NCBI RefSeq assembly: GCF_900114455.1
Contig: NZ_FOTC01000006.1
Span: 62,001-126,000 of the forward strand
Reading direction: 5' to 3'
DNA length: 64,000 nucleotides
Origin: Halogranum rubrum
GTDB lineage: Archaea; Halobacteriota; Halobacteria; Halobacteriales; Haloferacaceae
Shown here one piece after another: positions 25,587 through 62,155 of the stretch. Each line of letters begins with the position of its first letter. Positions within the stretch are counted from its first letter, which is position 1. The notes under the pieces were generated by a model that saw only the letters and a program-made list of their open reading frames with translations, ran no database searches and was not told the origin of the DNA. Position numbers and translations under genes: made by a program.

Positions 25587-26882
25587 TCAGTTGTCCGAAA
25601 GGTGGTTCGTCAGTGACGCAAAACGCGAATCTTCACGGATAATCTCATAGACGATCTCAGGCTCCTCAACGAGTCGGTTCAAGAGCGTAATCCCACCCGA
25701 GCGGCCGAGATTCTCCTTGCGGTTGTCGACGATCCCTAGGAAGGCGAGTTCTTTTAGGATGTCACGGAACCGTCGTTCCGAACGAACGCCTTGGTCGATG
25801 TTTTCACAGATATTCTGGTACTGGCGATACACGAGCTGGGTCGGGAACTCCTCTTGCTCCGAGTTCAACGAGAGAATTGCCAGTGCGAGCAACGATGCTT
25901 TCGCCTGTTGCGGAATCCCTTCGATGAGTTCCTTGAATCGATCTTTCTCAGCTTTCGTCCGTGCGTCTTGCACGTGCTGTTCAGTGACGTTGGCAGCATT
26001 GCGCTCGTAGGCGATGTTCCCGGCGTGGCGGAGAATGTCGATGGCTTTCCGTGCATCACCGAAATCAGAGGCTGCATACGCCGCACAGAGTTGGACCACA
26101 CCGTCTTCGAGGACATCGGGTTTGAATGCGTCACGACGATGCTGGAGGATCTCTTCAAGTTGGTCAGCATCGTAGGGGTGAAACGACAACTCCTTCGGCT
26201 GGAGGCTGCTTTTGACTCGCTCGTTGAGGTCGTCGGCCCACTCTATTTTGTTCGAAATCGCGATTACACCGATGCGGCAATCAGTGTTTCCTGACTCACC
26301 CGCTCGCGAGAGTTTCATGAGCAGGTTGTCGTCGGCCATCATGTCCGCCTCGTCGAGAATGATAATCACAACGTCATAGAGTTCCTCGAGTGTCCGCCAC
26401 AGACGTTTGTAGTAGGCAGCTGTCGAAAGCCCCCGTTCGGGGATATCGAAGCCAGTCTTCGAAGAATCATTGAACGAGCGAGCGAGTGTCGAAGCAGCCT
26501 GTGTTTCAGTGTTATCTGTCGAACAGTCGAGATACTGAAAGCCGATGTTGACGTCAGTGTGGGCGTTACTGACTGCTTGTGAGGAGACGTACTTCGAGAC
26601 GAGCGATTTCCCCGTCCCAGTCTTTCCGTAGACGATTACGTTCTCGGGCGAGTAACCCTGCACTGCTCCACGGAGCTCCTCGGACAACTTGCGGATTTCC
26701 TCGTCTCGTCCGACAATGCGCTCGAAACTCGGGATATGACTAATCTCGAGCAGACTCTTATTGGCAAAGATGGGGTCTTCCTGTCGAGAAAATATTTCTT
26801 TGGCAATGTTGACTTGTTCGTCATCTCGAGGATCCGCTGTCTCATCCGGCGCGGAGGTGTCCTCGGGCGAATCATCTTCCAT
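25587..26882 (-). CDS. orc1/cdc6: Orc1/Cdc6 replication initiator, origin 1
   Basis: A 431-residue Orc1/Cdc6 AAA+ ATPase. An acidic N-terminal tail (about 1-40) is followed by Walker A YGKTGTGKS (about 85), Walker B ILDEADMM (about 186), sensor 1 around AISNKIEW, the lid with DFGDARKAIDILR, and a C-terminal winged helix for DNA binding. The ATG at 26882 is preferred to a longer reading (26957); TTTAATATAG about 28 bases upstream is a likely TATA box. The array of boxes starts just upstream, so the protein probably binds its own promoter and origin. It resembles the orc gene at 54162 along its length. Confidence 0.93.
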   Translation of the reverse strand: MEDDSPEDTSAPDETADPRDDEQVNIAKEIFSRQEDPIFANKSLLEISHIPSFERIVGRDEEIRKLSEELRGAVQGYSPENVIVYGKTGTGKSLVSKYVSSQAVSNAHTDVNIGFQYLDCSTDNTETQAASTLARSFNDSSKTGFDIPERGLSTAAYYKRLWRTLEELYDVVIIILDEADMMADDNLLMKLSRAGESGNTDCRIGVIAISNKIEWADDLNERVKSSLQPKELSFHPYDADQLEEILQHRRDAFKPDVLEDGVVQLCAAYAASDFGDARKAIDILRHAGNIAYERNAANVTEQHVQDARTKAEKDRFKELIEGIPQQAKASLLALAILSLNSEQEEFPTQLVYRQYQNICENIDQGVRSERRFRDILKELAFLGIVDNRKENLGRSGGITLLNRLVEEPEIVYEIIREDSRFASLTNHLSDN

Positions 26883-51572: not shown

Positions 51573-52364
51573 TTAAGAGTGGGCGAGGTTGAGCTCCAGT
51601 TCGTTTACACTCCGATGAATGAGGTCTGAGATCTCATTCTCCAGTTGTTCATGCTTCAAGCGGTGAGCAGGCCCAGCAATGGCAAACGCACCGAGGATGT
51701 TTTCATCTGAATCCACGATTGGGACGGCCACGGCACGCAGTCCTCTGGTGCTTTCACTTTCATTAATTGCGAATCCCTGTTTCCGTACTTTGTCGAGTTC
51801 GTCGAATAACGCTGTCTCAGTAGTAATCGTGTTCTCAGTCGCAGCTGTTAGACCGTATGTGTCGATGAGGCGTTGAACCTCTTCTCTGGGCATCTGCGCC
51901 AGCATGGCCTTCCCTGCGGCTGTGTGATGTATGTGAAACCGCTTCCCAACCCGCCCCTTTGAGAAGACACCCTGCATGCCAGTCTCACGATACAGAACTA
52001 CTGCTCGCCCGTGCTCTCTGACGGTGAACTGCGCTGTCTCACCGGTTTCCTCAGCGAGTTCCCGGAGTTTCTCCTGAATGAGCGTATTCCCTTCTATCTG
52101 GTTCCGGACGTCGGCGCCGATGTCGAGGAACCGAAGACCGAGGCGGTACGCTCTATCGTCTTTTGTGACGAAGTCGCCGGCTCGAAGTGTCGCCAGATGC
52201 TTGTGAACGGAACCCTTCGATAGTCCCGTCGCGTTCGCCAGTTCTGTGACTCCAGCGACTTCGCGCTCTTTCAGTTCTGAAATGATAGCGAACGACCGCT
52301 CGAGACTCTTCAGCGTTCGCCCATCGTCCGACGCTTCACACCCGTTATCGCCTGTATTTTCCAT
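51573..52364 (-). CDS. IclR-family transcriptional regulator, catabolic island
   Basis: A 263-residue IclR protein. The winged helix (TELANATGLSKGSVHKHL, about 40-58) precedes an effector domain with FHIHTAAGKAMLAQMP-like and LRAVAVPIVDS segments. It resembles the IclR gene at 9352 in layout but not closely in effector residues, so a different ligand is expected. It is probably the local regulator of the acyl-CoA genes; no operator is recognised. Confidence 0.9.
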   Translation of the reverse strand: MENTGDNGCEASDDGRTLKSLERSFAIISELKEREVAGVTELANATGLSKGSVHKHLATLRAGDFVTKDDRAYRLGLRFLDIGADVRNQIEGNTLIQEKLRELAEETGETAQFTVREHGRAVVLYRETGMQGVFSKGRVGKRFHIHHTAAGKAMLAQMPREEVQRLIDTYGLTAATENTITTETALFDELDKVRKQGFAINESESTRGLRAVAVPIVDSDENILGAFAIAGPAHRLKHEQLENEISDLIHRSVNELELNLAHS

Positions 52365-53520: not shown

Positions 53521-53767
53521 CGGCAAGGCGAAGGGCGGATGTATTAGTTAGAGATACATCGTGACCTCTCTATCCCGACAGAATTAAATACCAATGAGTC
53601 GAACCAAATCATACAAGAGTCACATAGCAACATCTAGGAGTGACTTCGGTCACGACACAGCGGTTCAACCGCTCTGTGTGTTTGTCTGGCGAGTTAGCCT
53701 TCTGCGCGTTCTACCTCGCTCAAACGGACAATTTCTCTAAGCAAGATCACCCGACACGCTCGCTCAG
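53521..53767. other. central AT-richer element of origin 2
   Basis: This 247-base non-coding stretch, with AT-rich runs such as GAATTAAATACCAATGAG, is flanked by inversely oriented boxes. By analogy with archaeal origins it is the probable unwinding element. No gene is supported. Confidence 0.55.
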
Positions 53768-54107
53768 TTTGCAGCGGCAACGAGGGGTGTGTGTGCTCGG
53801 CTGTATCACCGCAGATTCGCCCAAAGATATTCCACGTGAAGACGGGCGACCAACCACTTGCAGCGGCAACAAGGTCTTCTTCCAGCGGCAACGCAGGGCT
53901 ATTTGCAGCGGCAACAAGGGGTGTCAGACATATATCTGAGCAACGATTATTCAACCAACTCACTGTCCAGAACCAAGCGCTACAAGCTCTAATAAGCTGG
54001 ATTCAGTGTGGCTACCCCTTGCCACTTTGCTATTCGTGTCTTAATTGGCCGAGCAAGATCTCACTCATTTGCAGCGGCAACGTGGGGTGTTTCCAGCGGC
54101 AACGACC
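53768..54107 (+). repeat. origin-2 boxes, right half (plus orientation)
   Basis: Six boxes read on the plus strand: full copies at 53768-53790, 53902-53925 and 54068-54090 (TTTGCAGCGGCAACGTGGGG type). Shorter or variant copies are at 53858-53874, 53881-53898 and 54092-54107 (CCAGCGGCAACG). The last two lie directly upstream of the orc2 gene, where they could also control it. Confidence 0.85.
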
Positions 54108-54161
54108 TATGTTGTAATGCGAACATTGATACTCTCTCACGAGAGCACCATTCACAAACGG

Positions 54162-55364
54162 ATGTCGGACTCAATCGACTACTTTGGAGGGAACGATGCC
54201 ATCTTCCGAAACAAGGATCTCCTCCAAGTCAAATACCTTCCAGACGAAGACCGCATCATCGGTCGGAACGAACAGTTGAACGATCTGGGTTCGTCACTCC
54301 GACCTGCACTGAAGGGCCAGACTCCCAACCACGTCCTCATTTACGGCAAAACGGGGACAGGGAAGTCACTTTGTTCGAAGTTCATGGCTCGCCAGCTCAA
54401 AACTCGAGCCGCAGCAGACGACGTTCGTGTGGGGACCGCCTACGTGGACTGTTTTCAGGACTCGACTGAAACGCAGGCGGTCAAATCGATCGCCATCCAA
54501 CTGAACGACGACGCCGGTGGCGAACTCCGAATCCCCGCTGCTGGCTTGAGCACGGGCGACTACTATCGGAAGCTCTGGACTGTTGTCGACGATTACTACG
54601 ATGTTGTCATCGTCATCCTCGACGAGATCGACAAACTCGACGGTGACAACGTCCTCATGCAACTCTCGCGTGCAGTCGAGTCTGGCAAGCTCACTAGTAG
54701 TACGCTTGGGGTCATCGGTATCAGTAACAAGATTCAGTACAAGGACACGCTCAACGAGCGAGTCAAATCAAGCCTCTCTGAGCGAGAATTCGTCTTCCCG
54801 CCGTACGATGCAAACCAGCTGCGGGCAATTCTCGAGTCACGACAGGATGCGTTCCGAGACGGCGCGCTCTCTGATGCAGTGCCACCGCGCGTTGCTGCAC
54901 TTGCCGCTCGTGAACATGGTGACGCACGCAAAGCAATCGACATCCTCCGGTTTGCTGGTGAGATTGCAGAGGATGCAGGCGACAGCGTCGTCAGGGAAGC
55001 CCATGTGAACAAAGCCCACGAGCGAGAGGAACAGAATCGTGTCGCGGACCTCATCTCGAAGAGCACGCCGCACAGTCGCTTCGTCCTCATCGCACTCGCG
55101 AACATCGTCCAGCAACGCGGCGACGACGAAGCATGGGTCCCGACCAACGATATCTACGACGTCTACCGTACTGTTTGCAAGGGTGACGGAGCTGAACCCC
55201 TCAAGAAGCGCCGCATCCGAGATATCCTTTCTGAGCTCGAGTTCCTCTCGATTATCGACCAAGACCTTCGCGGTAAGGGGCAAGGACAGGGCAACTATAT
55301 GGTCAATCGTCTCTCCGAAGTCAAGCCGACAATCGTCATCAAGGCGTGTGCTGACGCCGATTAG
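54162..55364 (+). CDS. orc1/cdc6: Orc1/Cdc6 replication initiator, origin 2
   Basis: A 400-residue Orc1/Cdc6 AAA+ ATPase. Walker A YGKTGTGKS (about 58), Walker B VILDEIDKL (about 153), ISNKIQYKDTLNERVKSSL, HGDARKAIDILR and a C-terminal winged helix are present. The ATG at 54162 is preferred because the longer reading (from 54045) runs through origin boxes. It is similar in order and motifs to the orc at 25587-26882 but is paired with different boxes. The N-terminus lacks the acidic tail of that protein. Confidence 0.93.
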   Translation: MSDSIDYFGGNDAIFRNKDLLQVKYLPDEDRIIGRNEQLNDLGSSLRPALKGQTPNHVLIYGKTGTGKSLCSKFMARQLKTRAAADDVRVGTAYVDCFQDSTETQAVKSIAIQLNDDAGGELRIPAAGLSTGDYYRKLWTVVDDYYDVVIVILDEIDKLDGDNVLMQLSRAVESGKLTSSTLGVIGISNKIQYKDTLNERVKSSLSEREFVFPPYDANQLRAILESRQDAFRDGALSDAVPPRVAALAAREHGDARKAIDILRFAGEIAEDAGDSVVREAHVNKAHEREEQNRVADLISKSTPHSRFVLIALANIVQQRGDDEAWVPTNDIYDVYRTVCKGDGAEPLKKRRIRDILSELEFLSIIDQDLRGKGQGQGNYMVNRLSEVKPTIVIKACADAD

Positions 55365-55387
55365 TCTGGTTGTCATTCTGACATTGG

Positions 55388-55410
55388 TTGCAGCGGCAAC
55401 GAGGGGTGTG
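55388..55410 (+). repeat. origin-2 box downstream of orc2
   Basis: TTGCAGCGGCAACGAGGGGT is a full copy of the origin-2 box lying 24 bases beyond the orc2 stop codon. The gene is thus bracketed by boxes on both sides, as at origin 1. Confidence 0.8.
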
Positions 55411-57419: not shown

Positions 57420-59528
57420 TCATCCCTCTCCAAATGTCTGCAACGAGATATCCTTATAGTCCGCTAAATACTGGGTGATATCTGCTTCACGCCACCCAAG
57501 CGGTGAGAGGACGCTTTCTGCGGCACGAATCAACTGCTTTCGATAAAACTCGATGTCGTACTCCTCAACCCCTTCTGTGGCGAGCGCAACACGGTCCGCT
57601 GTCTGCTTGCTATCATCGACGACGACATAGTCAACGTTCTGTCCCGGATTCCGACACAGCCCACGAGTCTCTGCGCGTTCCAACGCAGCGACGTTCCGCG
57701 TGGTCCGTGTATACTCATCGAGTGGTTTCGAGACACGATTTGTGATGACTAACTCCGATACGTCGAGAGTGCCAGCCTGCAACCGCTGGAGCCACCGCTT
57801 CAGTTGCTCACACACAGCCTTTACATCACGGTGTTCGTCGAGAGCCTCGATCATATCCTTCTGCGCAGTCGCGATGAACTGGGGGGTACTGCGCTGGCGA
57901 CATTCGATGCCGCGATACTTGTAGTCGTCCTCGGCAGCGACTTTGCCGAAGTATTTGGTGAGGGCGCCAGCCTCGGAATTCCGCAGTGGGACGAACGCAA
58001 TCCAGTCGTAGTGCGCCTCGTATTCCAATCGAATGCCAACGTCGGCGGTGACTATCTCGGTGATTTCAGCCAGTGGTGTCTGCTCTTCACCCTCAACAGC
58101 CGTCACCCACACCGAATCGACGATACCATGGACGACGCGCCAGCCGTTCGCTTCGAGTGTCTCCTTCGTATCTAGCAAGATTTCGCGAGCGAACGCGTTG
58201 ATTGCCTCGTGGCACTCGATCCGACCGAATTTTGCGTTCGAGAAGCCTTGATACCCGAAACACGAGACGAGGATCCACTTGATGGCGCTTGACCGGCCTT
58301 CTAATTCGACGATTCGTTCGGCGTCGTCAGTCTCCCGTAACTCGGTCTTCATCGTCTCACGGTCAGTGATGAGCGGTTCGAGCACGTCGGGGAGATATCC
58401 GCGTTCGTCACAGATACAGTATCCAAGGCCGGGAACATCCTCCCGACCAGCATGGCACTCACACCGAATTTTTTCAGGACTCACGTTCCGGCTCACGATG
58501 ATGTTGGGGTACAACGACGAGAAATCTAACTCGTGGACGTCCTCGTGTAGGCCGACATCGGGTGCGAACGTAAATCCGCCTCTGTCTGCTTCGTGGAGTT
58601 GCCGCATCGTCTTGAGCTGTTCGTGGCGCCACGAGTGCCACGGGACGAGCACGTTGCGACGCCGAGCCTCACGAATCTGCATCGCCGTGAGGATGGTCCC
58701 AATCGAGGCCCACGCCAGTTCCTGCAATGGCTTCCCGGACCGCTCGACGAGATCGATACAACCATCGAGATTCGACTGTGACCAAAAGAACGTGTTCGAA
58801 CGATCGACAATGGCCCGTCCCGGTACGTTGAAGCGAGCGGGCGAGTGGCCGACCCGCCCATAACTCGCGTAAGTTGACTCGCCAGCAAGTTGTTGCCACT
58901 CTGGGAGACGCCCTAACTGGAACTCGTCGAAATCGCAACTCTCGGCCGCTTGGTACAGTGCGGGCACCACCTCACTGGTGTTTAGCATCAGCACGTCAGG
59001 GTCAGTGTCTGTCACTCGCTGGGACAGCTTCGCGAGAACCGCTTCGGGGTCGCCTGACAGTCGTTCCTCATCAACCAGTAGCTTTGTGAGACAATCTGCT
59101 GCGAGGACCGACTCGTCAACGGCAAGTTCCATGACCGACAACTCTCGTTCAGGGATGGGCGATAGGTCTCGCTCCAGACAGTACCGGAACTCTCTGGAGA
59201 AGTCGACGTTGTAGAGGCGATAGTCGCCGGGCTTTGCCCATCCCGAGATCTCGTGTGCGAGCGTCGTCACGGCGTCGAGGCTGGTCACGTCGACGCGGAG
59301 GACGGACTCTGAGTCGTAGCGGAACCCGATACGTTTCTCAACAGTTCTCGCGTGGACGACGTCGGGATGGTCCCGGAGGGTCCCATAGAGGTCGACGAGA
59401 TCAGCGCGCCCGTGGACAGACACATAGAGCGTCGGCGTGTAGGAACTGTTACGGACGTACTCGGCCCCATCGTCGGTGAGCGTCCACTCAAGGACGTCGC
59501 CATCGCGGTAGTCGATTTTGAACGGCAT
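57420..59528 (-). CDS. polB2: family B DNA polymerase, PolB2 type
   Basis: A 702-residue family B polymerase. Motif A ELDFSSLYPNII (about 331), motif B KWILVSCFGYQGFSNAKFG (about 414) and motif C as GIVDSVWV (about 468) are seen. Motif C lacks the first Asp of YGDTDS but keeps the second, which is the essential metal ligand. The exonuclease part is degenerate (no clear DxE; LNTSEVVPAL where ExoII should have Asp). Archaeal PolB2 proteins carry such altered motifs and were thought inactive, though a crenarchaeal one is implicated in damage tolerance. It is last in an operon with a RecA-like gene. Confidence 0.9.
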   Translation of the reverse strand: MPFKIDYRDGDVLEWTLTDDGAEYVRNSSYTPTLYVSVHGRADLVDLYGTLRDHPDVVHARTVEKRIGFRYDSESVLRVDVTSLDAVTTLAHEISGWAKPGDYRLYNVDFSREFRYCLERDLSPIPERELSVMELAVDESVLAADCLTKLLVDEERLSGDPEAVLAKLSQRVTDTDPDVLMLNTSEVVPALYQAAESCDFDEFQLGRLPEWQQLAGESTYASYGRVGHSPARFNVPGRAIVDRSNTFFWSQSNLDGCIDLVERSGKPLQELAWASIGTILTAMQIREARRRNVLVPWHSWRHEQLKTMRQLHEADRGGFTFAPDVGLHEDVHELDFSSLYPNIIVSRNVSPEKIRCECHAGREDVPGLGYCICDERGYLPDVLEPLITDRETMKTELRETDDAERIVELEGRSSAIKWILVSCFGYQGFSNAKFGRIECHEAINAFAREILLDTKETLEANGWRVVHGIVDSVWVTAVEGEEQTPLAEITEIVTADVGIRLEYEAHYDWIAFVPLRNSEAGALTKYFGKVAAEDDYKYRGIECRQRSTPQFIATAQKDMIEALDEHRDVKAVCEQLKRWLQRLQAGTLDVSELVITNRVSKPLDEYTRTTRNVAALERAETRGLCRNPGQNVDYVVVDDSKQTADRVALATEGVEEYDIEFYRKQLIRAAESVLSPLGWREADITQYLADYKDISLQTFGEG

Positions 59529-59534
59529 GACTGG

Positions 59535-59804
59535 TTAGCGGAGCGTCAACGAGACGGCGAGTTCCTCGACCGTCGACTCCAAATCGTCGATTCGTTTCTC
59601 CTGTTCGAGTACGACTGAGACCAGAATCCGTACCTCGACCGACTGGTGATTCAGATAGCCTGCGGCATCGGCGTGTGCGCGGGCGTGTTCGAACAAGCGG
59701 TCAAAGTGATCTTGGTCGTGTCGACGGAGTGCACGGCGATAGGGGTGCCACCGCTCTTCGGTGGCCCGCAAGAGGTCTCGATAGGTTGAGTTAGTGCGAC
59801 CCAA
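59535..59804 (-). CDS. small conserved helical protein of the PolB2 operon
   Basis: An 89-residue acidic/basic helical protein (MGRTNSTYRDLLRATEERW..., then FDRLFEHARAHADAAGYLNHQ and a terminal coiled-coil-like stretch). It resembles a small haloarchaeal family that begins MGRTNPTYRD; function unknown. The start is TTG at 59804, supported by this resemblance, and gives a 14-base overlap with the RecA-like gene. Six bases separate it from polB2, so the three genes are one transcript. Confidence 0.7.
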   Translation of the reverse strand: MGRTNSTYRDLLRATEERWHPYRRALRRHDQDHFDRLFEHARAHADAAGYLNHQSVEVRILVSVVLEQEKRIDDLESTVEELAVSLTLR

Positions 59805-60468
59805 CGGTCGACACCTCCGGTTTCGTCGCTGCTGCAATGGCCGGATGACGGGTCTCAAGAACGCGCTGCCAGAACGCAATCGTCGTCTGGACGAGCCCAT
59901 CACCAATGGGATAGACCAGTGACTCGAATTCGTCGCCGACGAATCGGGGGCCGAACTTCGTCAGTTCACACGCAACGACGGCATCGACCTTGGCGCGGAG
60001 CGGCGCTGTGAGTACGTCCGTCCGGCACTGGGTCACCAAGATAGGGATTTCGTAGTCGGCTGCGAGGGTTCCAATCAACCTGGCTCCCGCCTCAAGCATC
60101 CGTTTGCGCTCGCCGCGTCTGAGGTCATCCGTGCGATAGAACGCATCGAACGATGGGAGGACGACAAGCGAAGTCTGTTCGTCTACTGTCTCAGTGAGGT
60201 CACGAAGCAGACTCTGATGTTGCCACGGCGTGAACGCCCGTGCGATGTGGACTCGGTCGAGCGTCCGCATACTCGGGGCGACCTGTGCGAGCGTCTGGGT
60301 CGTGCCGTGGCCCTTTGCATCGACCCAGACTGCCGGGCCATTCTCCAGAAGGATGTGATCGAGCACGAGCGATTGCAAGGCGCCTGTTGCACGCTGGTCT
60401 GCTTCGAGGAGCGTGACGCCAGCGTCGAGCGTCGGCAACTCGGGACTGTTGGATGGTCGGTGGGACAT
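59791..60468 (-). CDS. RecA/RadB-like protein with degenerate ATP loop
   Basis: A 225-residue RecA-superfamily protein. The core strand order is recognisable: VWVDAKGHGTTQTL at the Walker A position (no GKT/S), ARAFTPWQHQSLL as in RadA, a Walker-B-like SLVVLPSFDAFYR, and ILVTQCRTD. ATP binding is doubtful. It heads the PolB2 operon. RecA-like partners of damage-tolerance polymerases are known (bacterial ImuA with DnaE2), so an accessory role for PolB2 is plausible but inferred. The ATG at 60468 is preferred to the GTG three bases upstream. Confidence 0.7.
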   Translation of the reverse strand: MSHRPSNSPELPTLDAGVTLLEADQRATGALQSLVLDHILLENGPAVWVDAKGHGTTQTLAQVAPSMRTLDRVHIARAFTPWQHQSLLRDLTETVDEQTSLVVLPSFDAFYRTDDLRRGERKRMLEAGARLIGTLAADYEIPILVTQCRTDVLTAPLRAKVDAVVACELTKFGPRFVGDEFESLVYPIGDGLVQTTIAFWQRVLETRHPAIAAATKPEVSTVGSH

Positions 60469-60517
60469 CACACCTGTACCTTTCAGCAGGTGGATACATA
60501 GGCAAGACAGGGTTGGT

Positions 60518-60535
60518 TCCGATAGTTCCGATAGC
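60518..60535 (-). promoter_or_regulatory. tandem TATCGGAA element upstream of the PolB2 operon
   Basis: Read on the minus strand: CTATCGGAACTATCGGAA. It ends about 10 bases upstream of a TATA-like TATGTATC (near 60506), itself about 38 bases before the RecA-like start. The same tandem precedes the third orc gene. It also lies 6 bases beyond that gene's 3' end. Confidence 0.7.
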
Positions 60536-60540
60536 CGAAT

Positions 60541-61542
60541 TCAGCGGACTCGGTACGTCCGAGCACGCTTCTCGCCATCGGCGATGACGAGCTTGTAATG
60601 AACCATTTTCGAGAGGTAGTTTCGCATGGTACGCTTCGTCTTTGGATCGTCGACTTCGTCGGTGTATCGCTCGTAGAGTTCACCCGGATTCAGTTGGCCT
60701 TCAGTCTGTAAAATCTCGTAGAGGGCGCGTTGATGCTGGTTGAGTTTACTGACTGTTTGCTCCCGGACTTCGTCTTTCCCGCCGGGGATTGCCTCGTCGA
60801 GGATTTCGGTTGTTATTGTCTCTGTTCCCCGTTGGGTGGCCCGTCGAGCAGCGTTACGGAGGATGCCGATCGCGACCCGTGCGTCTCCCGCTGCAGCATC
60901 GGCGATTAAGGCCAGTTCTTGCTTTCCGATAGCGTTTTCCGATAATCCCCACCGTGCTCGGGCTTCGAGGATCGAGACGAGTTCGTCGAGATGGTATTTC
61001 TCGAATGGGATCCGAGTGCACGTCTGCAGCCGACTGGTGAGCCGGCCGTCCAACTGTGAGAAGAGGTCCTTCTCACGGTTTGCGAGGAGCACCATCGAGA
61101 CGTTGTGTGTCTGGTAGAGGTCGTACAGAACGCTTTTGTCTTCGAGTTGGTCGACTTCGTCGAGAATGACGACATATTGTGGGCCGTCATACTGATGAAG
61201 CCGTTCGAGGAGTTCGTCTTTCGGTGTCGATCGACGGTGGATATCGATCGTATTGTCGATGCCTTCGAGAACGCGATAGAGGACGCGAAAGCGGGTGTAG
61301 TCCTGCCAACAGTTGACGTATTGGGAGTTGATATCGAGGACGTTCTCGCGGAGTCGTTCGACTGTATACTGGGCGATACAGGTCTTCCCCGCACCAGAGG
61401 GACCGGTCAAGAGGGTGGTTTCGGCACTGTGACCGTCCATGATTGGGCGGAGGGCATTTGAGAGGTGGTTCACCTCTTGGTTCCGATGCTCGACCTCTCT
61501 GGGAGTGAACTCGGACTGGAGTACGCGAGCATCGGTTATCAT
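60541..61542 (-). CDS. third Orc1/Cdc6-like AAA+ protein, possible regulator
   Basis: A 333-residue Orc1/Cdc6-family ATPase: Walker A TGPSGAGKT (about 45), Walker B VILDEVDQL (about 125), LLANREKDLFSQLDGRL (sensor region), GDARVAIGILRNA lid and a C-terminal winged helix. It is shorter and clearly different from the two origin-linked paralogues. The ATG at 61542 has a TATA-like GTTTATCG about 30 bases upstream; the reading to 61749 is unsupported. It has no G-run origin boxes nearby, only the tandem TATCGGAA element, so it may regulate transcription. Confidence 0.88.
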   Translation of the reverse strand: MITDARVLQSEFTPREVEHRNQEVNHLSNALRPIMDGHSAETTLLTGPSGAGKTCIAQYTVERLRENVLDINSQYVNCWQDYTRFRVLYRVLEGIDNTIDIHRRSTPKDELLERLHQYDGPQYVVILDEVDQLEDKSVLYDLYQTHNVSMVLLANREKDLFSQLDGRLTSRLQTCTRIPFEKYHLDELVSILEARARWGLSENAIGKQELALIADAAAGDARVAIGILRNAARRATQRGTETITTEILDEAIPGGKDEVREQTVSKLNQHQRALYEILQTEGQLNPGELYERYTDEVDDPKTKRTMRNYLSKMVHYKLVIADGEKRARTYRVR

Positions 61543-61587
61543 ACGAGACGTGTTTGAGATGCAGGACGATAAACGGAAGCGGGTCGT

Positions 61588-61606
61588 TTCCGATAGTTCC
61601 GATACA
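61588..61606 (-). promoter_or_regulatory. tandem TATCGGAA element upstream of the third orc gene
   Basis: Read on the minus strand: GTATCGGAACTATCGGAAA. It ends about 13 bases upstream of the TATA-like box (about 61568-61575) of the third orc gene. Sequence, orientation and position relative to TATA match the copy ahead of the RecA-like/PolB2 operon. Confidence 0.7.
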
Positions 61607-61741
61607 GTCTCTCGAATCGTCGTCGCCGAGAGGGAACTCGTTGTGACGACAGATCGGCCAGAGCATTGGAAGTGGTGGTGTGTTTTGGGTGAGTGACCCA
61701 CATCGTTATCGGGTGATCTCTCCAAAGCGACCCCTACTTCG

Positions 61742-62155
61742 ATGGTCAAGGTTCCTGACTCATTGCGGTGTCTGTTTTCGGCGTCTGTGACCGAACACGA
61801 GGGGTCGTACAGGATCGAAGTTCCACGCGGGGAGATTGAAGAGAGTAAGTTCGATGTCGGTGAAGACTATGGTGTTGGCGTGCTCACGCACACTGCCGCG
61901 TCGTCGCCGAGTGACTCCCCCGACGCCGCCCCGAATACATCGCCAGATGCTCAGCAGGGTCCACCCGTTGAGGAGGGAGACGTCCGTGAGGTCATGATTG
62001 AGACGCTCGGTGAGCAGGGAGACGGCATCGCGAAGGTTGAACGCGGATACGTTGTAATCGTTGACGGCGGACAGCCTGGTGAAACTATAGAAATCGAGGT
62101 GCATACAGTTCGAGAGACCGTCACCTTCGCTGAGATTGTTGGGTCTGAACCGTAG
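61742..62155 (+). CDS. TRAM-domain protein
   Basis: A 137-residue protein. The N-terminal half (about 1-75) is a small strand-rich segment ending in a Ser/Pro/Asp-rich linker. The C-terminal half (about 80-137) is a TRAM domain (EQGDGIAKVERGYVVIVDGG, PGETIEIEV), a nucleic-acid-binding OB-like fold. Archaeal TRAM proteins bind RNA and can act as RNA chaperones. It is divergent from the third orc gene. Confidence 0.87.
   Translation: MVKVPDSLRCLFSASVTEHEGSYRIEVPRGEIEESKFDVGEDYGVGVLTHTAASSPSDSPDAAPNTSPDAQQGPPVEEGDVREVMIETLGEQGDGIAKVERGYVVIVDGGQPGETIEIEVHTVRETVTFAEIVGSEP

Follow-up and report, generated by a model that had tools for sequence, protein, structure and literature searches.

In a 64,000 nucleotide (nt) stretch of the archaeon Halogranum rubrum (contig NZ_FOTC01000006.1, positions 62,001 to 126,000, called the window below), the gene for a compact Orc1/Cdc6-family protein (orc) and the neighbouring operon iRadA-PPB2-PolB2 carry the same tandem element upstream of their TATA-like boxes. 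The two transcription units are very probably controlled together through this shared element. The reading we favour, with a probability of about 0.62, is that of a self-regulated cassette: Orc would act on both promoters, and the PolB2 mutasome would be made on DNA damage.

The element is a 17-mer, TTCCGATAGTTCCGATA on the plus strand and TATCGGAACTATCGGAA on the minus strand, which is also the strand of all the genes concerned. Exact copies are found at 61588–61604, in the orc promoter, and at 60517–60533, in the operon promoter. The local version of the half-site is TATCGGAA, with a 1 bp gap and a 9 bp period. With up to three mismatches the window contains two matches, 0.14 being expected by chance, and in the 4.57 Mb genome the orc and operon copies are the only sites with 0–1 mismatch. 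If the motif is loosened and the downstream block NCRRCYC is added to it, exact matches in the genome are again confined to these two places. Judging from the sequence, the orc promoter is laid out as ...ACGACCCGCTTCCG-TTTAT, with the TATA-like box at 61569–61573, 27 nt 5' of the ATG, and the operon promoter as ...CCAACCCTGTCTTG-CCTATG, with the box at 60497–60502. An earlier note on this DNA, made from the letters alone, had already placed a tandem element upstream of both TATA boxes. The exact 17-mer is indeed present twice, the coordinates given in the note were off by one or two bases, and both promoters have 14 bases, not 10–13, between element and box. A TTTAT/TTTAA-like box is found at equal spacing in most orc orthologues. 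Since the TATA boxes lie only 26–31 nt 5' of the start codons, both transcripts are probably leaderless.

Conservation of the element was examined in 170 genomes of the Haloferacaceae and in 391 genomes of the Halobacteria. The family scan gave 19 sites in 14 of the 170 genomes. Most of them are found 44–50 nt 5' of an orc orthologue (60–80% identity), which is followed by iRadA-PPB2-PolB2 with an element of its own. In the class scan, a site with at most one mismatch is found in 92 of the 391 genomes. The reversed pattern gave no sites in either scan. Reversal destroys CpG, so this control is too lenient, and a dinucleotide-matched tandem control was added beside it: It gave sites in 18/391 genomes. 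Several of the matches with at most one mismatch (for example, L093–L098, L100–L105, L109, and L110) have no clear target gene or are apparently coding, they are likely to be due to chance.

When orc promoters were fetched by protein similarity alone, a tandem site, defined as [C/T]GGAA-N3-5-[C/T]GGAA ending 38–60 nt before the start, was detected in 42 of 50, while shuffles gave 0.01. The general motif is thus a tandem [C/T]GGAA that recurs about every 9 bp, and TATCGGAA is a local version of it. Other versions are ATTCGGAA, TTTTGGAA, TTCTGGAA/TTCCGGAA, and AATTGGAA. Among operons found through PolB2, a variant of the site is present in all seven which are led by PPB2 and have no iRadA, and in 9 of the 14 led by iRadA. 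The script counted seven of the latter: In L037 and L052 the site is visible in the sequence, but they fail its TATA test. No clear tandem site is found in an orc group with about 54% identity (for example, G000:C10:42716, L150) nor at iRadA loci with 42–45% identity (L038, L040, L044, L047, and L048), so the element is confined to a subfamily. L150 (G000:C10:42716–43711) codes for a second compact Orc, 54% identical, and some 5 kb from it the same genome carries a distant iRadA (42%). This Orc is one of a large group of similar proteins, many of which are encoded on plasmids. In three loci of genus g19 (L078, L080, and L081), the tandem sites TATCGGAAATATCGGAA precede another pair, similar to TATCGGAA. 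All three loci are within about 4 kb of a 36–38% identical Orc, perhaps a related Orc of equal specificity.

A striking feature is the way in which the two promoters change from one species to another. We have compared the eight specificity bases which precede the GGAA cores, in pairs from the same locus and from different loci. Both promoters are available for 26 loci, in which the orc site agrees with the iRadA site in 5.73 of these 8 bases, against 4.60 when the pairs are permuted (p < 0.0002). The result holds when a single representative of each group is taken (18 pairs, p < 0.0001). No such agreement within loci is found in the 16 nt upstream flank (p = 0.84), and the 12 nt downstream of the sites show a weak excess (p = 0.015), which fits a conserved ACGACCC-like block. 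Two unrelated promoters drift together, as a common binding protein predicts. The earlier note had expected that the element would be conserved upstream of both genes in relatives and that the two transcripts would be co-regulated. The scans bear out the first point: The element has a fixed position, and control patterns are absent or rare. These features and the co-divergence within loci also favour the second, as far as sequences can tell.

The following mechanism would account for this arrangement. Orc would bind the tandem [C/T]GGAA half-sites just upstream of the B recognition element (BRE) and TATA box of orc and of iRadA-PPB2-PolB2, and would shift the transcription of both jointly, as a self-regulated cassette with two promoters. 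On DNA damage both promoters would most likely be turned on, giving the PolB2 translesion mutasome. That damage is the signal appears likely from the biology of PolB2 and from the analogy with Orc1-2, a Sulfolobus paralogue described below. As to the sign of the control, we lean towards activation: The position of the site, 5' of the TATA box and not over it or over the start, weakly favours an activator. In archaea, activators usually bind upstream of the TATA box.

The compact Orc is quite likely the protein which binds the element. It is a candidate because of the analogy with Orc1-2, the presence of a site at orc itself, and the co-occurrence of element and Orc. All genomes with the exact element possess this Orc (26/26), and it is present in 79 of the 92 genomes with the element, compared with 192 of the 299 without it (p = 3e-5). 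Several observations weigh against our reading. In 13 of the 92 genomes with an element of at most one mismatch, no Orc is found at E ≤ 1e-60; chance sites are expected with this number of mismatches. A clear tandem site has not been seen in some close orc orthologues (L121, L128, L130, L134, L160, L162, and L167). The hexamer ANTTTC, the DNA damage-responsive element (DDRE) of Orc1-2, is absent from both element regions. Finally, covariation between Orc residues and the element is not higher in the winged helix than in the rest of the protein (p = 0.50), so the choice of Orc as the binder does not follow from the sequence. The two columns with the highest covariation, 287 and 325, are both within the winged helix.

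This lack of a covariation signal in the winged helix favours a different explanation: The element might be the site of another, unlinked haloarchaeal damage-response factor, and Orc might be just one of its targets, perhaps an origin or fork factor. There is a precedent in the ultraviolet (UV) motif TTTCACTTTCA, which lies some 50 nt 5' of radA1 and of other UV-B-induced haloarchaeal genes, and for which no regulator is known (PMC2556686). We consider this explanation unlikely. All 26 genomes with the exact element possess Orc, the element is found at orc itself in most orthologues, an autoregulatory arrangement as in Orc1-2, and TTTCACTTTCA is absent from the orc and operon promoters. It is somewhat less doubtful, if still improbable, that Orc binds as a LexA-like repressor: ATP-bound Orc would silence orc and the PolB2 operon, and damage would relieve this. 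Autoregulation together with a damage-tolerance polymerase follows the logic of LexA and umuDC, and bacterial lexA genes are enriched beside PolB2 genes (PMC11791011). On the other hand, Sulfolobus Orc1-2 mutants have been reported to lose damage-responsive regulation (PMC9738581). On our reading, the cassette would work like the LexA/SOS system which controls umuDC or imuA-imuB-dnaE2 in bacteria, with an autoregulated factor, an inducible error-prone polymerase, and a RecA-like partner. Orc differs from LexA in that it belongs to another protein family, has another site, and lacks a self-cleavage domain.

The tandem block might also be taken for an origin recognition box (ORB)-like site of Orc, whose position in promoters would be incidental. 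GGAA(A)/TTTCC is similar to the core of the origin boxes recognised by Orc1/Cdc6 proteins. The sites are single tandem pairs, which occur at a constant distance in the promoters of several genes unrelated to one another, and they do not form repeated arrays with G-runs, unlike the surroundings of the orc gene at 54048. An origin box is thus very improbable. The two promoters could finally match by accident or have been duplicated, as the identity of both sites over 17 bp in this genome might suggest. However, their flanks are unrelated (p = 0.84 upstream), the sites co-diverge in other species, and control patterns yield no sites or far fewer. Chance or shared descent is therefore refuted by the dinucleotide-matched control and by the co-divergence.

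Part of this picture has been published. In Sulfolobus, Orc1-2 binds to the promoter of its own gene and to promoters of other genes of the damage response (PMC9738581), and DNA damage induces the PolB2 operons of Sulfolobales (PMC11791011). It is also known that orc1/cdc6 (arORC2) is enriched beside PolB2, and a role in damage control has been suggested (Makarova 2014, PMC4104785; Timinskas 2025, PMC11791011). What is new is thus the cis element, not the linkage of Orc and PolB2 nor the comparison with Orc1-2 of Sulfolobus. In the open literature searched we found no description of the element, its family, its conservation, or its co-divergence. The PolB2 mutasome operon of Timinskas 2025 and Makarova 2014 has the same three genes as ours; in those papers we found no mention of the shared cis element, nor of its conservation or co-divergence. 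Like Orc1-2 of Saccharolobus/Sulfolobus, our protein is an Orc1/Cdc6-family AAA+ winged-helix protein with a putative site at its own promoter. Orc1-2 has sites at its own and other damage-response promoters; here the element is at orc and at the PolB2 operon, and binding by Orc is inferred. The two differ in their sites, ANTTTC in one case and a tandem WWYYGGAA repeat with a 9 bp period in the other. Moreover, orc adjoins the PolB2 operon here, and this genome has two sites and no global regulon. The radA1 UV-B motif TTTCACTTTCA of Halobacterium NRC-1 likewise consists of tandem repeats, which precede the start codon by about 50 nt and lie upstream of the TATA box, at repair genes. We have rejected the idea that our element is this motif: It differs in sequence and period, and neither promoter contains TTTCACTTTCA, which has a single exact match in the window, at 51752, inside an IclR-like gene.

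No regulator of the DNA-damage response in Euryarchaeota is known to us. The compact Orc is a specific candidate: Its putative site is defined and conserved, and its regulon would be small (two promoters in this genome). If our reading is correct, Orc paralogues serve as transcription factors of the damage response in Crenarchaeota and Halobacteria alike, and a tie between Orc and targeted mutagenesis, perhaps also excision of integrative elements, becomes directly testable.

Candidates for such elements come from the Natrialbaceae, where the tandem element and a TATA box are found at nine integrase modules (L172, L173, L177, L182, L184, L185, and L187–L189). In them a divergent gene for a phiH1-like winged-helix repressor lies on one side of the element, and a tyrosine integrase or its leader open reading frames (ORFs) on the other. 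These integrases are relatives of those of pleolipoviruses; the element was not found near the integrases of five isolated pleolipoviruses (Harhisp1, SNJ2, HHPV4, HRPV9, and Halfgib1). From this placement, damage-triggered excision of Natrialbaceae integrative elements is possible. A wider and more tentative proposal is that of a compact haloarchaeal SOS-like system, often plasmid-borne, in which an Orc1/Cdc6 paralogue takes the place of LexA. An autoregulated Orc would act through tandem GGAA boxes to turn on a mutagenic PolB2 mutasome, this Orc would have been co-opted by the Natrialbaceae elements through the box at their integrase promoter, and damage to the host DNA would set off their excision. 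Other apparent targets are the gene for a helix-hairpin-helix (HhH)/RNase H-like nuclease (L183), a 192 amino acid protein (L178–L180), and a subtilase locus (L075). Together with the integrase modules they may be considered as candidate members of a regulon, to be taken as leads. L178–L180, from three genomes of genus g40, have a third GGAA half-site, 5' of the 192 amino acid protein, which is conserved and of unknown function. In the integrase modules, the leader which follows the element (L172 6166-, L187 813+, L189 6650-, and similar cases) is highly conserved, with an ORF of about 50 amino acids (..ARTVSPRS..). In most loci ACG is the sole plausible start of this ORF, and in L187 it is ATG; a non-AUG start or a structured RNA is possible.

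The genes of the cassette had been correctly called and assigned to families by the earlier note. PolB2 (57420–59528) is a family B DNA polymerase of 702 amino acids (NCBIfam NF004418, 1090.7 bits, cut-off 692; Pfam DNA_pol_B, 1.7e-29), with an altered motif C, HGIVDS in place of YxDTDS. The iRadA gene (59791–60471) codes for a RecA-like protein of the RadA/Rad51 type, of 226 amino acids (Pfam Rad51, 6.7e-8; TIGR02237 RadB, 3.4e-8, below the cut-off), whose Walker A is degenerate: No GxxGxGKT is found in its sequence. Between them, PPB2 (59535–59801), a putative small PolB2 partner of about 88 amino acids, probably starts at a TTG which overlaps the end of iRadA. It has no Pfam or NCBIfam family above cut-off, and its syntenic homologues are 44–77% identical. 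Its place is that of PPB2 in published PolB2 operons, in which a helical protein of about 90 amino acids (arCOG07300) lies between iRadA and PolB2 (PMC11791011, PMC4104785). By its sequence, this is a typical PolB2 mutasome operon, with altered catalytic motifs in the polymerase and an inactive homologue of RadA (hence iRadA).

The orc gene (60541–61542) codes for 333 amino acids with a C-terminal winged helix. The protein matches Pfam Cdc6_lid (2e-13) and TIGR02928 (181.8 bits, just over the cut-off of 181.3), it does not match Pfam Cdc6_C. Walker A (GPSGAGKT), Walker B (LDEVDQL), and the sensor-2 region are all conserved, which indicates an intact ATPase. The AlphaFold2 model shows a confident AAA+ plus winged-helix fold, with a predicted local distance difference test score (pLDDT) of 90.5 and a predicted template modelling score (pTM) of 0.87. 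The winged helix (pLDDT about 90) has helices 269–281, 286–296, and 303–315 and wing strands 319–322 and 329–332. In a Foldseek search, the best PDB match is 2qby_A, Sulfolobus Orc1 on origin DNA (E 1.2e-19, template modelling score 0.75). Two further exact TTCCGATA half-sites, 5 bp apart, are found within the orc coding region, at 60924–60931 and 60937–60944: They are possibly a downstream operator, or else due to chance.

The window contains three orc genes, the other two at 25650–26777 and 54048–55361. In agreement with the earlier note, no origin recognition boxes with G-runs were seen beside orc 60541–61542 by inspection of 60400–61800. Repeated G-run boxes (TTTGCAGCGGCAACGAGGGGT-like) are found on both sides of orc 54048, at 53740–54110 and 55380–55410, and probably correspond to a plasmid or secondary replication origin.

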